From IMG/VR virus record IMGVR_UViG_3300025141_000020, positions 1 through 64,000 of that record: 64,000 bases of DNA; one strand, 5' to 3'. A program made the position numbers and the translations under genes. The notes beneath the pieces are model-generated. The model ran no database searches. It was not told where the DNA came from and saw only the letters and a list, made by a program, of their open reading frames with translations. This document shows positions 3,638 through 23,243 of this stretch, piece by piece. The stretch is from a virus. Position 1 is the stretch's first letter, and every line of letters starts with the position of its first letter.

Positions 3638-3794
3638 CGTTATTTTCGTCTTTTAGTTTTTGGTATGTGTCTGAATCTACACTTACTTGTACTACTCTTT
3701 CGTAAACTCCTGGTTCTCTATTGAAGTATTCTACGGTTTCTCCTTTGTTAAGTGTTTCTACGTCGTCTTCACGTACCCAAATTAGTATTTTCAT
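3615..3794 (-). CDS. Small acidic hypothetical protein (59 aa)
   Basis: Found by translating the gap upstream of the exonuclease. The ATG at 3794 opens 59 codons (MKILIWVREDDVETLNKGE..., ending NNDEKYSGE). It overlaps the exonuclease start by 23 nt and its own ATG overlaps the stop of the upstream 38-residue gene (ATGA). The pattern of beta-rich residues with VYERVVQVSVD near residue 30-40 looks like a small folded protein. No family is recognised. Confidence 0.65.
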   Translation of the reverse strand: MKILIWVREDDVETLNKGETVEYFNREPGVYERVVQVSVDSDTYQKLKDENNDEKYSGE

Positions 3795-3907
3795 GTTTTT
3801 GGCTTTTTATTTTTTAAAAAAATATATTCTGTGATGGTCCATCCTATACATACCATAATAATACATACGAATGTTATTCCCAATATTTGTGTTATTGTTT
3901 CAATCAT
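3791..3907 (-). CDS. Single-pass membrane miniprotein (38 aa)
   Basis: A 38-residue protein starting at 3907 with a hydrophobic stretch ILGITFVCIIMVCIGWTI (about residues 8-25) and a basic tail LKNKKPKT. The topology is an N-out or N-in single transmembrane helix with a cytoplasmic basic end by the positive-inside rule. ATGA overlap with the next gene shows translational coupling. A Bacteroidota-type -7 element (TATCTTTG) lies 4 nt before the ATG. Function unknown. Confidence 0.6.
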   Translation of the reverse strand: MIETITQILGITFVCIIMVCIGWTITEYIFLKNKKPKT

Positions 3908-6135: not shown

Positions 6136-6166
6136 CAAATATAAAAATTATTTTTTACTTATTCAA
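6136..6166 (-). promoter_or_regulatory. Bacteroidota-type promoter TTG-N20-TATATTTG
   Basis: Minus strand: TTG at 6166-6164, a 20-nt spacer, TATATTTG at 6143-6136, then 4 nt to the ATG at 6131. It straddles the stop codon of the glutamine synthetase gene, so it separates the downstream small genes from that gene. Both elements and the spacing fit the known Bacteroidota sigma-ABfr consensus. Confidence 0.65.
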
Positions 6167-7370: not shown

Positions 7371-7682
7371 ATGAATGTTATTTTAAATAATAAAGAAATT
7401 CCGGTAGAAATTATGTCTACCCCTAATAGTATTTCTACTGGCATGATGGGTAGAGACCATTTAGATGGTGGTATGTTGTTTGTTTTTGAGGATGTAGGCG
7501 AACGTTCTTTCTGGATGAAAAATTGTTTGATACCTTTAGATATCATTTTTATGGTTAATGGTGAAGTTAGTGAGGTTTACGAAAATTGTGTTCCTTGTGA
7601 ATCAGAGCCTTGTGAAAGATATTGGGGTTTGGCTGATAAAGTTTTAGAATTAAATGGTGGGGAATATTTAAAATTTATATGA
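7371..7682 (+). CDS. DUF192 family protein (103 aa)
   Basis: Matches the DUF192 (PF02643) pattern: STGMMGRDHLDGGMLFVFED, then FWMKNCLIPLDIIFMVNGEV, a Cys pair in CVPCESEPC, and the C-terminal VLELNGGEYLKF. The family is a small beta-barrel of unknown biochemical role, widespread in bacteria and archaea, often with a signal peptide; here no signal peptide is present. It is the first gene of a plus-strand island and its stop overlaps the ATG of the metallopeptidase (ATGA), so the two are coupled. Confidence 0.85.
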   Translation: MNVILNNKEIPVEIMSTPNSISTGMMGRDHLDGGMLFVFEDVGERSFWMKNCLIPLDIIFMVNGEVSEVYENCVPCESEPCERYWGLADKVLELNGGEYLKFI

Positions 7683-9918: not shown

Positions 9919-9942
9919 TAAATCTCATATTGTCTAAAAATA

Positions 9943-9967
9943 AAAGGTCCTTCGGGACCTTTTTTTA
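9943..9967. terminator. Bidirectional rho-independent terminator
   Basis: Perfect 8-bp hairpin AAAGGTCC-TTCG-GGACCTTT closed by a stable UUCG tetraloop and followed by a T-run on the plus strand; the minus strand also reads into TTTTATTTTT. It sits between the plus-strand lipoprotein and the minus-strand DHH gene, which converge, so it can end both transcripts. Confidence 0.9.
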
Positions 9968-9988: not shown

Positions 9989-11428
9989 CTAACTACCAAT
10001 TTTCTCTTTGATGGTATTAACTAGTTCTTTTTGTACCCATTTAACAAACTCAACATACCTTGTAGGTTTACTGTCCGCTTTTTTCTTCCATGTGCCTTCT
10101 GGGTTTCTAGTGGCTCTACTAAAGAAGTTTAGTCCACTTATATTGGTTATGCATTTATGCCCACCACTATTAGCTTGTATAACGTCCCAAGCTGGCACTG
10201 TTATTTTATCTAATACTATTTTTTGTTTTTCACTTAAATTATCCCAAGGGGTATCAATAATATCAATTGCCATGTTATAGTATTGTGAACCCTCTTTTGG
10301 CATATTTTGTAGGTGGTCTTTGTATAACGCGAATAAATCTGAAGTTTTAAAGCCAATACTATCATCTTGTGCTTTTGTTTCACCAACTCTCTTAATTACT
10401 GAAATAGGTATCATATGTGCTTTTAATTGTGGTTCTATTTTTTTAAGTACTTCTTGAGCTATATCTCCTAAGTTAACACCTTTAAGAGCTCTATCCTTTT
10501 TAAATGGATTGCACGAAGCTTGTACTAACCCCATTGGCCAAGCAACTACGAAGAAATCAGCTTCTGGGTATATTTTAAATGGTGTGTATCTATCATAAGA
10601 ACCCGGTTTAAATAATGCACCACCACCATATTGTACTATTATATTACCATCTAAAGTTAAATTATCACTTTCTTGTTGGGATTTGATGTATTCGGCTTGG
10701 TTTTGTGCCATATCTTCAGGTGAAGCAAATCCTTTTTCTTTTGCATATGAAGTTATATTTTGGTATATGTTTAGTAGGGATGGGGTAGAGTTCATTACCA
10801 GATTTTCTAAGAACCCAGGTTTATTTTTATAAGCTAATAATAACTTATTAGTTAAAAGACCTAACATCCATTTCTTTTCATATGCTTGGTCACCTTTTTC
10901 AAAATCCCTAATTAAGTTCATTACTTGTTCTGGTTCAATATCGTGTTTTGCGTAGTCTGCAGAATCTACGGTATTAATCATCATAATATCTTCATTACTA
11001 AAAATATCACTAGGACTTATGGTTTGTGAGATGGTTTCTACGTTTGACCTTGCTCCTTTAAATTGTGTTGCGGTGTCATCTTCAACACCTGCTTGTGAGT
11101 CATGGTGGTCTGTATGTATCTTAAAGATTGGTTTGCCGTGTGCAAAATCTACAAGTACCGGCATTACATCACCGCTTGCGTCTGGTTTTTTAACAGAAAA
11201 TTCTTTATCCCCATATTGTATAACATGTGAACCTATAACATCAATCCCATAGCTTTCAAGATAATTTTTCATTCCTAATGCTGATACTACTCCGTCTAGG
11301 TCTTGGTGAAAGTATATCTCTGCTTTTGGATATCTGTCTGCTAATTTGTTAATATCCCTAATCCCACCTTCATTTAAAAGTGACCCATTAATATGGTCTA
11401 GTTGTTGTTCTGTTATCTCTATTTTCAT
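9989..11428 (-). CDS. DHH-family phosphoesterase (479 aa), N-terminally tagged
   Basis: Motifs of the DHH superfamily (RecJ, nanoRNase/pAp phosphatase): HQDLDGVVSALGM (motif I, about residue 41-53), LVDFAHG (motif II), HTDHHDSQ (DHH motif III, about residue 107) and a C-terminal GGHKCITNISG resembling the DHHA1 substrate loop. Such enzymes are Mn-dependent exonucleases or oligonucleotide phosphatases. The N-terminal 20 residues (MKIEITEQQLDHINGSLLNE) are not part of the fold and match the tag on lysozyme and the PG-binding protein. TATTTATA lies 4 nt before the ATG. Likely substrate is single-stranded nucleic acid or dinucleotides; this is inference. Confidence 0.8.
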   Translation of the reverse strand: MKIEITEQQLDHINGSLLNEGGIRDINKLADRYPKAEIYFHQDLDGVVSALGMKNYLESYGIDVIGSHVIQYGDKEFSVKKPDASGDVMPVLVDFAHGKPIFKIHTDHHDSQAGVEDDTATQFKGARSNVETISQTISPSDIFSNEDIMMINTVDSADYAKHDIEPEQVMNLIRDFEKGDQAYEKKWMLGLLTNKLLLAYKNKPGFLENLVMNSTPSLLNIYQNITSYAKEKGFASPEDMAQNQAEYIKSQQESDNLTLDGNIIVQYGGGALFKPGSYDRYTPFKIYPEADFFVVAWPMGLVQASCNPFKKDRALKGVNLGDIAQEVLKKIEPQLKAHMIPISVIKRVGETKAQDDSIGFKTSDLFALYKDHLQNMPKEGSQYYNMAIDIIDTPWDNLSEKQKIVLDKITVPAWDVIQANSGGHKCITNISGLNFFSRATRNPEGTWKKKADSKPTRYVEFVKWVQKELVNTIKEKIGS

Positions 11429-11432
11429 ATAC

Positions 11433-11440
11433 TATAAATA
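11433..11440 (-). promoter_or_regulatory. Late-promoter-like octamer TATTTATA
   Basis: Minus strand, 4 nt before the ATG at 11428. With a Bacteroidota-like distance from -7 element to start site, the transcript would be leaderless. Confidence 0.55.
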
Positions 11441-11442
11441 CT

Positions 11443-12006
11443 TTACAATCCTTCTATAAATTTTTGATGCTCTAACTCCCTTCTTTTAGCTAGTCCAGGA
11501 AATTTACTACTAACTCTATAAGTTTTAATTGCTTCCCCTGCTTTTTTATATTCATTAGTATCTAATGTGCCTATACTTTTTAATAGGGATATTACATCAG
11601 CCATTCTTAATCCTGAAGCACCACCATTATAGGATAAAGATAATAAAGCGTCGTACATATTTTGAGTTATTGGTACGTATATTCCTTGGTCCTCCCAATC
11701 CTTAAAAATTTTTCTTAGTCTCTTTGCGTGATAGTTAGAATCTTCTTGTAATTTCTCAGTGGCTTCCTTCTCACAATTTGTACCATCCCCTAATATATCA
11801 CCTTCTTTAACCCCCTCTGTATGTCCATATCCTATTGTCCATTTACCATCACCAATACTATATGCTTTACATTTTAAACCTTCCTCTTTTCTTATATGAC
11901 TCCAATACCATTGTGAAGCTTTTAAACTAGAAGCTCTCATAAAGTTAGAATTATCTAATTGTTCTGAAATTAGTTTAACTTGGTTTTCTGTAATTACTAT
12001 ACGCAT
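11443..12006 (-). CDS. GH24 (T4-type) lysozyme, 187 aa, N-terminally tagged
   Basis: Cleaves the MurNAc-GlcNAc bond of peptidoglycan. The catalytic core is KEEGLKCKAYSIGDGKWTIG with Glu42 and Thr57 at the spacing of T4 lysozyme Glu11 and Thr26; Asp20 is not at the T4 position, but Asp53 two residues later may replace it. Further family motifs are YGHTEGV, NMYDALLSLSYNGG and LAKRRELEHQKFIEG. The frame opens at an ATG at 12036, but the ATG at 12006 is chosen: it starts with the shared tag MRIVITENQVKLISEQ and is preceded by the TATTTATT element. No signal peptide, so a holin is expected. See the hairpin feature upstream for its control. Confidence 0.9.
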   Translation of the reverse strand: MRIVITENQVKLISEQLDNSNFMRASSLKASQWYWSHIRKEEGLKCKAYSIGDGKWTIGYGHTEGVKEGDILGDGTNCEKEATEKLQEDSNYHAKRLRKIFKDWEDQGIYVPITQNMYDALLSLSYNGGASGLRMADVISLLKSIGTLDTNEYKKAGEAIKTYRVSSKFPGLAKRRELEHQKFIEGL

Positions 12007-12045
12007 AAAAAAGTCGTTTACAATAAATACAATCATAAACGACTT
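12007..12045 (-). promoter_or_regulatory. Lysozyme regulatory hairpin with late promoter in its loop
   Basis: Minus strand 5' to 3': AAGTCGTTTA (12045-12036), a 15-nt loop TGATTGTATTTATTG, then the perfect 10-bp complement TAAACGACTT (12020-12011), TTTT, and the lysozyme ATG at 12006. The loop contains TATTTATT (12029-12022). Read-through RNA would fold into a hairpin ending at the start codon, a terminator-like or translation-blocking structure. RNA started from the loop promoter would lack the 5' arm and be open. This is the layout known for T4 gene e. Confidence 0.75.
12022..12029 (-). promoter_or_regulatory. Late-promoter-like octamer TATTTATT in the lysozyme hairpin loop
   Basis: Minus strand, 15 nt before the lysozyme ATG at 12006; a one-mismatch form of the octamer. 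The expected start site lies in the 3' arm of the hairpin, so late RNA escapes folding. Confidence 0.55.
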
Positions 12046-12060
12046 ACTACATAAAGTAGT
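12046..12060 (-). promoter_or_regulatory. Second small hairpin upstream of lysozyme
   Basis: Inverted repeat ACTAC-TTTAT-GTAGT, directly adjacent to the 10-bp lysozyme hairpin and 8 nt after the cysteine synthase stop. No T-run follows, so it is more likely part of a processed or structured leader than a terminator. Confidence 0.4.
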
Positions 12061-12067
12061 TATTTAT

Positions 12068-12967
12068 CTACATACAACTAAAATACCTCTCTCCCCTATC
12101 ACAAAGAATAGTAACCGCATTATTTTTATTGTTATCTCTTAGCCATTGAAATGCTGCGAATATATTAGCTGCAGCACTTATACCTACAAACAACCCGTAT
12201 TTTTTTGCTAAGTGTCTTGCACATTTTTTTGCACATGCTGTAGACACTGTTCTAACCTCATCTACCTTATCTAGGTCCACGAGGAATTTACTACCGTCTC
12301 CTATCCCTTGGATACCGTGAAGTCCTGGTTCACCACCACTCATAACAGCACTCTCTGTTGGCTCTATTGCTACTGTCTTTATGGTAGGCCACATTTCTTT
12401 TAAAAACTTATCGGTACCCATAAGGGTACCACCAGTTCCTGTTCCAGCCACAAAGACGTCTGGTGTACACTCTCTTATTTCATTAGCATCTTTAAATTGG
12501 TTGTATATTTCTGGACCTGTGCCCATATAATGTGCTTCTATATTTAACGGGTTGTGGAATTGGTTGCAATTAAACCAACCATTTTTATTACATATGTCAT
12601 CTCTTAAAGCTATTGCTCCATCAAAGTCTCCTTCTTCAACCTCAATTAATTCTGCACCATAAAACCTAAACATATTTTTCCTTTCTTCAGACATATTAGA
12701 TGGCATGATAATAACCATTTTATAACCTCTTTCCGCGGCTAACATTGCAAATGAGATACCACTATTACCTGATGTCGCTTCACATAGGGTATCACCTCGT
12801 TCTATTAGTTTTAATTTCTCTGCATTATTAATAATAAAGCTTGCCATTCTATCTTTAACAGAACCACTAGGATTCATAAATTCAGATTTGCCCCAAACGG
12901 TAAAATCCCCAATGGTAATGGGGATTAACGGGGTGTTACCCACATAATCAGATAGTCTTTGTTTCAT
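12068..12967 (-). CDS. Cysteine synthase, CysK/CysM family (299 aa)
   Basis: PLP-dependent O-acetylserine (or O-phosphoserine) sulfhydrylase making cysteine from sulfide. The Schiff-base Lys38 is in NPSGSVKDR, the substrate loop is EATSGNSGISFA, the phosphate-binding Gly loop is GTGTGGTLMG, and AIEPTESAVMSGG and HGIQGIGDG follow. Length is typical, so it appears intact. The stop of the cyclophilin is not in this frame; rather its own ATG overlaps the upstream cyclophilin stop (TAATG), showing coupling. An unusual auxiliary metabolic gene for a phage; it fits the extreme cysteine content of the tail proteins in 45-63 kb. That link is inference. Confidence 0.93.
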   Translation of the reverse strand: MKQRLSDYVGNTPLIPITIGDFTVWGKSEFMNPSGSVKDRMASFIINNAEKLKLIERGDTLCEATSGNSGISFAMLAAERGYKMVIIMPSNMSEERKNMFRFYGAELIEVEEGDFDGAIALRDDICNKNGWFNCNQFHNPLNIEAHYMGTGPEIYNQFKDANEIRECTPDVFVAGTGTGGTLMGTDKFLKEMWPTIKTVAIEPTESAVMSGGEPGLHGIQGIGDGSKFLVDLDKVDEVRTVSTACAKKCARHLAKKYGLFVGISAAANIFAAFQWLRDNNKNNAVTILCDRGERYFSCM

Positions 12968-13395
12968 TAGTCTACTATTTCTACTGAAAATTTGTCTCCT
13001 TGTTGGATTTGTTCTACAATCTCTAATCCTTCTGTTACTTTACCAAAACATGTATGTTGTTTATCTAGGTGTTGTGTTCCTTGTCTACTATGACAAAGAA
13101 AGAATTGTGAGCCACCAGTATTTCTACCAGCATGAGCCATAGATAACACCCCTTTGTCGTGGTATTGGTTATCCCCGTCTAGCTCACAATCAATTTTATA
13201 TCCTGGACCACCCATTCCGTTTCCGTTAGGACACCCACCCTGTGCTACGAAATTAGGGATGACTCTATGGAAGTTAAGGTCTTTATAAAAACCATCTTTT
13301 GCTAATTTAACAAAATTATTTACTGTGTTTGGTGCGTCTTTCTCATAGAACTCTACCACCATAGTTCCTTTGTTTGTGTTAATTTTACCTTTCAT
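12967..13395 (-). CDS. Cyclophilin-type peptidyl-prolyl cis-trans isomerase (142 aa)
   Basis: Catalyses proline isomerisation during protein folding. Core motifs are [20 protein letters not shown] (catalytic Arg in FHRVI), [27 protein letters not shown] and [17 protein letters not shown]. No signal peptide, so it acts in the cytoplasm. It is translationally coupled to cysteine synthase downstream and overlaps DUF3310 upstream by 11 nt. The proline-rich tail proteins (many PP and PG pairs) are plausible clients, an inference from composition. Confidence 0.93.
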
Positions 13396-13997: not shown

Positions 13998-14314
13998 TAG
14001 TTCATGCACATTGGAGGGAATCCTTTAATAATTGTTTTAAATATTTTCTTTTGTTCTACTGTTGGGTAATTTATATGGTTTTTTTGTTCTACCATAATTG
14101 CTGTTATAGTGGCCATTTGTTCTGCTGATAGCATAGGTTCTCCATCCATACCAACATTTTTTTCAGCTTGTTCCCTAACTAACTTAAAAAATTGTTCCAT
14201 ATCAACATCTAATCTAATAAACATATCTTTTCTTGCTTCTTCATCATTTTTAAAGAACTCTTTAAGTTGTCTTATGTAAATCTCTATATTAACGTCCATA
14301 AACATAAATACCAC
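13997..14314 (-). CDS. Hypothetical helical protein (105 aa)
   Basis: A Met-rich, helical protein (IEIYIRQLKEFFKNDEEARK, then FFKLVREQAEKNV and PPMCMN at the end). No recognised domain. The first Met residues (MVFMFMDVN) give alternative starts at 14314 and 14302 or 14296; the ATG at 14296 would begin MDVNIEIYIRQ. Its stop overlaps the next start. It abuts the stop of the 40-residue gene at 14315. Confidence 0.55.
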   Translation of the reverse strand: MVFMFMDVNIEIYIRQLKEFFKNDEEARKDMFIRLDVDMEQFFKLVREQAEKNVGMDGEPMLSAEQMATITAIMVEQKNHINYPTVEQKKIFKTIIKGFPPMCMN

Positions 14315-22304: not shown

Positions 22305-23243
22305 CTATGTTCTCCATTTTCTATTTCCACAGCATTCGCTTGCGGCAACAGCAATATTTCCTCCTCCTTTGATGCCGAGCTTTTTTGCGTCTGCATCAGA
22401 TATTTCAAGGTTTTTATGGTACTCCACCGCTTCACCATCAGGGAAAACAAGTACTCCTCCACCCTCATCATAATATGGTCCTGCCGAGTTACCTTGGTCG
22501 GAGATACAAATTACTAACCCTCCTTTTTCCCAGTCGTAAGGAATCCACTTCATACAACCATCCTTAAACCAATCTGGTTTCTTTGTTCCTGGATTATCTT
22601 CAATCCTCATACAATCTACAAACATTTGCCATCTATTAACATCACCTAGTCCGATAACATATTTAAGACAAGCTTTAATCCTATCACAATCATTTCCGGA
22701 TTCTGCTGGAATGTCTATATCGATAAACCAATCGTCACCATCTATCTCTATACTATCTCCACCATCATCAGTCCCTTGTTGTTGTTTACAATTACATTCT
22801 CTCTGACATAAAATATACGCTGCTGAATCTTTAGGGCTTGCGCTACCGTAACAATACCCACAAAGTGAATTAAGGGTATTCCATCCAACTTTTCCGTCTA
22901 CACTTAACTGTCCAGCATCTCTTTGGAATTCTTCTACTGCTTTCTTTGTTTCTTTTTCAAATTTACCGTCACAATTAGTCCAGTTTTCTATACATCCTTC
23001 GTTTATTCCACCACCTTGTTTTGTTGGGTTATACGGTCCCATCTCCCCACATCCTTTTGCTAAAAGATGTTGTATCATTTTAACCACATCACCTCTAGAC
23101 CCTCTTTTAGCTACCTTTATCTTACACCATATATCACATGGGACATCACCTTCCCTAATTCTCCCACCACTATATTGTTCAGATATAACTTGTGAAATTA
23201 TTTCAGTTAATTGTGATTCAGTTAATTTAATTTTTTTCATCAT
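22305..23243 (-). CDS. Peptidoglycan-binding domain protein (312 aa), N-terminally tagged
   Basis: Tag: KKIKLTESQLTEIISQVISE at the N-terminus, followed by QYSGG. A PG_binding_1-like domain spans about residues 48-135: RGSRGDVVKMIQHLLAKG, then CDGKFEKETKKAVEEFQRDA and VDGKVGWNTLNSLCG, with extra cysteines. The C-terminal 170 residues contain an acidic repeat (SIEIDGDDWFIDIDIPAES) and eight or so Cys, but no catalytic motif I know. It should bind the cell wall, either in the virion tail or in lysis. It overlaps the upstream 105-residue gene by 1 nt. Confidence 0.75.
   Translation of the reverse strand: MMKKIKLTESQLTEIISQVISEQYSGGRIREGDVPCDIWCKIKVAKRGSRGDVVKMIQHLLAKGCGEMGPYNPTKQGGGINEGCIENWTNCDGKFEKETKKAVEEFQRDAGQLSVDGKVGWNTLNSLCGYCYGSASPKDSAAYILCQRECNCKQQQGTDDGGDSIEIDGDDWFIDIDIPAESGNDCDRIKACLKYVIGLGDVNRWQMFVDCMRIEDNPGTKKPDWFKDGCMKWIPYDWEKGGLVICISDQGNSAGPYYDEGGGVLVFPDGEAVEYHKNLEISDADAKKLGIKGGGNIAVAASECCGNRKWRT

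Follow-up and report, generated by a model that had tools for sequence, protein, structure and literature searches.

The window analysed here is a 64,000-nucleotide stretch that corresponds to positions 1-64,000 of a 210,568-base IMG/VR record of a large marine phage (IMGVR_UViG_3300025141_000020; G000 in the coordinates below). On its minus strand a cyclophilin-like isomerase gene, a cysteine-synthase-like gene, a hairpin, a lysozyme gene and the gene of a 479-aa protein follow one another in that order. The 10-bp perfect stem of the hairpin, the promoter-bearing loop, a T-run and the lysozyme ATG are all contained within 12045-12004. A first-pass annotation had described the two arms, the 15-nt interval, four extra T's and an octamer, and re-reading of the sequence located each of them at the same positions. 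The features, all on the minus strand, are as follows.

14304..14310, minus strand: nearest conserved upstream promoter, TATTTAT, with 4 nt between it and the ATG that follows; shares its class with the lysozyme promoter
12967-13395, minus strand: cyclophilin-like isomerase
12068..12967, minus strand: cysteine-synthase-like gene (PALP), from which read-through RNA may originate
12045-12011, minus strand: hairpin
12036..12045, minus strand: 5' arm of the stem, AAGTCGTTTA (sequence, RNA fold, conservation in relatives)
12021..12035, minus strand: 15-nt interval between the arms, TGATTGTATTTATTG (sequence)
12035-12032 with 12024-12021, minus strand: inner stem extension, some pairs G·U (RNA fold, pair counts)
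12025-12031, minus strand: 7-nt loop UGUAUUU (RNA fold)
12022..12029, minus strand: promoter octamer TATTTATT, phage consensus TATTTATA (enrichment, spacing, conservation)
12017, minus strand: predicted transcript start (A), placed by spacing and by analogy with leaderless-type sites (TATTTAT + 5 nt + ATG)
12011..12020, minus strand: 3' arm of the stem, TAAACGACTT (sequence, RNA fold, pair counts)
12007..12012, minus strand: U-run TTTTTT, terminator-like, directly 5' of the ATG (sequence, terminator prediction)
12007-12010, minus strand: the four further T's, TTTT (sequence)
12004-12006, minus strand: lysozyme ATG (sequence)
11962..12006, minus strand: lysozyme codons 1-15, MRIVITENQVKLISE, an N-terminal stretch ending [LI]xE, putative propeptide
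11443..12006, minus strand: phage lysozyme PF00959, GH24 type, 187 aa (profile match)
11434..11440, minus strand: TATTTAT ahead of gene 9989-11428, with 5 nt to its ATG; a leaderless-type site, conserved among relatives
9989-11428, minus strand: 479-aa protein, the next gene

At the RNA level the stem comprises 14 pairs, with U·G, G·U and A-U pairs added to the 10-bp core, so that the octamer (12029-12022) straddles the loop and the 3' arm. The stem is AU-rich, with three G-C pairs, and the folded hairpin has a dG of -17.3 and a z of -5.1, a stability equalled by 0 of 200 shuffles. By themselves, perfect 10-bp repeats around a short loop are not rare in this AT-rich genome (14 seen in 210 kb versus 9.4 expected). 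A stem this good around the promoter arose in 2 of 20,000 local shuffles, and when 52 sites bearing TATTTAT were compared, the stem score at the lysozyme motif was 28 and the next best 18.5. Since the lysozyme site is the only one of the 52 with a strong motif-nested hairpin, hairpin nesting as a general rule for the promoters of this phage was rejected. A second stable hairpin, whose 3' arm overlaps TATTTAT, is found at G000 203014-203044 (-), before a 2948-aa gene (194122-202968).

The U-run is equally confined to this site. None of the 198 called starts in the record has five or more T's in the 6 nt before its ATG; the gene caller had put the lysozyme start upstream of the true ATG, which alone has such a run. 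The main stem stops 4 nt short of the AUG, which weak outer pairs reach in many relatives, and no Shine-Dalgarno sequence was seen at the lysozyme start.

Counting of 7-mers upstream of the 198 called genes of the whole record returned TATTTAT as the most enriched (50 of the 198 genes versus 4.2 expected), within a wider promoter consensus of TATTTATAATAAAA. The spacing between motif and ATG has maxima at 5 nt and around 14-16 nt, and the lysozyme ATG stands 16 nt from its promoter, counted from TATTTAT. Phage-wide enrichment, site spacing and conservation all agree with the earlier proposal that the octamer is the promoter motif of the phage. Genes bearing the motif encode the tail sheath, portal, terminase and head-tail adaptor and also a DnaB-like helicase; because of the latter, the designation "late" is likely for many TATTTAT genes but not proven for every one of them. 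In many genes TATTTAT is only 4-6 nt before the ATG (peak 5), which suggests that leaderless mRNAs are a major class in this phage. By analogy to these sites, RNA from the predicted start at 12017 would lack the entire 5' arm. A search for an early promoter just upstream of the lysozyme operon found none. As the lysozyme promoter and the nearest conserved promoter upstream of it (14310) belong to one class, a timing role does not follow from the arrangement.

The calculated cost of opening the lysozyme start region differs sharply between the two RNAs. On read-through RNA it is 14.7 kcal/mol, rank 1 of 197 genes (mean 4.5, sd 2.6), and on promoter-started RNA the computed 2.8 kcal/mol is an ordinary value. 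Most hairpin-bearing relatives behave alike, with 8-17.5 kcal/mol on read-through versus 1-3.5 kcal/mol on promoter RNA; in one relative with a mismatched stem, opening on read-through RNA costs 5.2 kcal/mol. With the start site as predicted, these energies bear out the suggestion that RNA begun in the loop is free of the 5' arm and open at its start region. The companion claim, that the start codon is blocked on read-through RNA, stands only in part: the computed opening cost speaks for it, whereas the stem ends short of the ATG and sequesters no Shine-Dalgarno sequence. Structure in the start region tunes initiation in Flavobacterium johnsoniae in the absence of a Shine-Dalgarno sequence (PMC6847099).

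The hairpin is also predicted to be terminator-like. Its stability is comparable to that of the other terminators of the phage, of the form AAAGG..CCTTTTTTT, and it has the layout of an intrinsic terminator: a stable stem, followed at once by a U-run, after a stop codon. Given the U-run, the element resembles an intrinsic terminator no less than a ribosome block. Comparable stability and the U-run together make termination just before the start codon the simplest reading, and a start region as occluded as computed would be a further barrier. The intrinsic terminators of the phage (AAAGGTCC..GGACCTTTTTTT) share the stem and the U-run after a stop codon; in contrast to them, the lysozyme hairpin alone carries a promoter in the loop and borders directly on a start codon. 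Elsewhere in the record, terminators stand just upstream of promoters, for example at 104340-104362, 208994-209019 and 205993-206012. Bidirectional terminators of the form AAAGG..CCTTT occur between genes at 9942-9963 in the window and at G000 147353-147382 and 177326-177353.

Related contigs were collected by searches with the neighbouring genes and with the element itself. The element is present in about 25 of them, once per contig in 24, in addition to variants, and this conservation rules out a chance repeat. Both arms are 95-100% identical between the window and eight relatives, while in most pairs the neighbouring gene retains about 52% identity at its fourfold silent sites, which are thus near-saturated; recent recombinational exchange of the module could contribute to the conservation of the arms. 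The element precedes two divergent groups of PF00959 lysozymes and one unrelated protein that matches the endolysin family PHROG 938 (E 6.6e-6 to 4e-4). Searches of Pfam and PDB gave no convincing match for this third class and its structure model is too poor (pLDDT 42), so that PHROG 938 is the basis for calling it an endolysin. The upstream gene also differs in some relatives, and the element still directly precedes the hydrolase gene. Its persistence across changes of enzyme and of upstream gene confirms that the hairpin is conserved and tied to a wall-hydrolase gene.

Most substitutions within the arms replace C by T or A by G, which leaves the sense RNA with a G·U pair. When the 14 pairs were tallied across 18 distinct sequences, 39 cells were G·U and 14 broken in the sense RNA, compared with 2 and 51 on the opposite strand. 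The comparison of relatives for compensatory changes that the first-pass annotation had proposed yielded one double change, from G-C to C-G (L115/L068), with a covariation score not above that of shuffles. Formal covariation is weak because the arms hardly vary, and it does not suffice statistically as proof of the stem.

In five contigs (L003, L007, L010, L012 and L031) the promoter and much of the T-run are kept and the stem is weak or absent. In a sister group (L131-L143, L239-L252), a few bases separate TATTTAT from the lysozyme ATG that follows, an arrangement of the leaderless type without a hairpin. The hairpin is therefore not indispensable, and its absence from several relatives and the sister group marks it as a feature of one clade rather than a deep inheritance; the earlier suggestion of deep conservation is contradicted by these losses. 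A distant relative, L038, has a different and shorter hairpin, AACTATTT..AAATAGTT, at about 3790-3830, just before a lysozyme-type gene and with the promoter in its 5' arm; it is possibly an independent version.

The lysozyme matches PF00959 with 70.4 bits (curated cut-off 22.3) and is the sole such match in the 210-kb record. Its N-terminus resembles the propeptides cut by T4 gp21-type proteases, and the record encodes a prohead protease of this type (PF03420, E 2.7e-27, G000 150998-151480). At least 13 proteins, the lysozyme included, start with a short ITExQ...[LI]xE stretch, among them those at 7679, 9989-11428, 11443-12006 and 22305-23243 of the window, which suggests a set of capsid-targeted proteins. 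In T4, N-terminal propeptides of this kind direct proteins into the head (PMC9026906), so the lysozyme may be head-packaged, and its role in lysis is uncertain because of the capsid-type propeptide. As the only PF00959 protein in the record, it remains a plausible endolysin. It is conceivable, if rather doubtful, that the hairpin-promoter and the adjoining propeptide together make up a transferable cassette for expression and targeting, with unrelated wall hydrolases swapped between phages behind it; the enzyme would then be late, promoter-specific and head-packaged, and not a classical endolysin.

Portal and sheath comparisons place Flavobacterium phage immuto, Rhodothermus phage RM378 and Microcystis phage Mel-JY01 among the nearest named relatives. 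Promoters of the form TTG...TAnnTTTG, of which TAnnTTTG is the Bacteroidota promoter consensus (PMC6847099), occur at 6143 (-) and 26924 (-) in the window and at G000 168825 (+), 182070 (+) and 203817 (-), and some of them stand 4 nt before an ATG. They point to early genes and, as some genes carry TAnnTTTG, the host is probably a member of the Bacteroidota.

The first-pass annotation had likened the site to T4 gene e, and the literature agrees that the T4 lysozyme gene is controlled by a hairpin in this way (PMC3014915, PMC2988022). The gene e leader forms a hairpin with late promoters in the region of its 5' strand (PMC3014915, PMC2988022), translational occlusion reduces expression about 100-fold, and some T4-type phages with gene e have no such structure (PMC3014915). 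Both systems place a phage lysozyme gene behind a hairpin, with promoter RNA devoid of the 5' strand and read-through RNA folded, and in both the structure is present in close relatives and absent in others. They differ in that the stem sequence here is unrelated, the octamer TATTTATA is the reverse complement of the T4 TATAAATA, the stem stops before the ATG at a start devoid of a Shine-Dalgarno sequence, and the element also precedes unrelated hydrolases. Moreover, the U-run here is terminator-like, whereas T4 gene e is not described as having a terminator. The unrelated stem, the reverse orientation of the octamer and a sister group without the hairpin all run counter to shared descent. Thus, as judged by sequence, the element likely works like that of gene e and is no member of the gene e system by descent. 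The T4-type homing endonuclease genes I-TevI, mobE and segB, together with soc and 49, likewise have a late promoter at a hairpin and a silenced read-through RNA, but these are other genes and their Shine-Dalgarno sequences are sequestered. In seg43(25) of Aeromonas phage 25, a very stable hairpin also ends just upstream of an initiation site that it leaves uncovered, but no wall hydrolase is involved (PMC2988022). No report of promoter-in-hairpin control of a lysozyme in the present phage group was found in the literature.

The reading that we favour, and regard as fairly probable, is a nested control site in which a terminator-like hairpin stands directly before a wall-hydrolase gene, with the promoter of the phage itself embedded in the hairpin loop and 3' arm. 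Read-through RNA from the cysteine-synthase operon would fold into the stem and presumably stop for the most part in the U-run, before the start codon; any RNA that passes the U-run would have a start region too structured for efficient initiation in the cell. RNA from the loop promoter would lack the 5' arm, carry a short open leader of about 11 nt, depending on the exact start, and be translated. With read-through RNA stopped or blocked and loop-promoter RNA translated, lysozyme would be made only from its own promoter. The hairpin, the promoter motif, their uniqueness and conservation, the strand-specific pairing and the difference in accessibility are computed results, and any timing effect of the element is presumptive.

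The same stem and U-run, so similar to the other terminators of the phage, would also fit plain insulation, in which the hairpin ends the upstream operon, overlap with the promoter merely saves space, and there is neither ribosome block nor timing role. Terminators just upstream of promoters elsewhere in the record and an upstream promoter of the same class are in keeping with this. However, the nested form exists only at the lysozyme gene, it stays directly before the hydrolase when the upstream gene differs, and the start region behind it is the most occluded of all 197; we therefore consider insulation possible but on the whole unlikely. The geometry shared with T4 gene e (PMC3014915, PMC2988022) and the opening energies would instead agree with pure translational silencing of an early read-through RNA, with late-promoter release and lysis timing and no termination. 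This is somewhat improbable, as it leaves the unique conserved U-run unexplained and calls for an early promoter that was not found upstream in the operon, and for occlusion by a stem that ends 4 nt before the ATG with no Shine-Dalgarno sequence to sequester.

A palindrome centred on a promoter and highly conserved in sequence might also be a DNA operator, bound by a repressor or activator. No second exact copy of an arm occurs in the genome, though, and the changes are biased towards G·U solely in the sense RNA, a preference that a DNA palindrome would not call for; such an operator seems a poor prospect. An in-frame ATG inside the hairpin (12036-12034), from which the frame in the window is open (MIVFIVNDFF-MRIV), raised the idea of a dual start of the lambda S kind with a longer, differently acting protein. 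The relatives led us to reject it as extremely improbable: the inner ATG is lost in L013 (TATAGTT), and in L011 and L017 the leader is one base shorter and out of frame.

Relative to T4 gene e, the nested control site would be new in its terminator component and in the exchange of enzymes behind a fixed element. If this interpretation is correct, the gene e solution arose independently in a group of large phages probably infecting Bacteroidota, with no Shine-Dalgarno sequence to hide, and the promoter-in-hairpin was combined with a terminator and retained while the enzyme itself was replaced. Keeping a wall-cutting enzyme off read-through RNA would then be selected strongly enough for the solution to be re-invented, and the site would offer a small, testable element.
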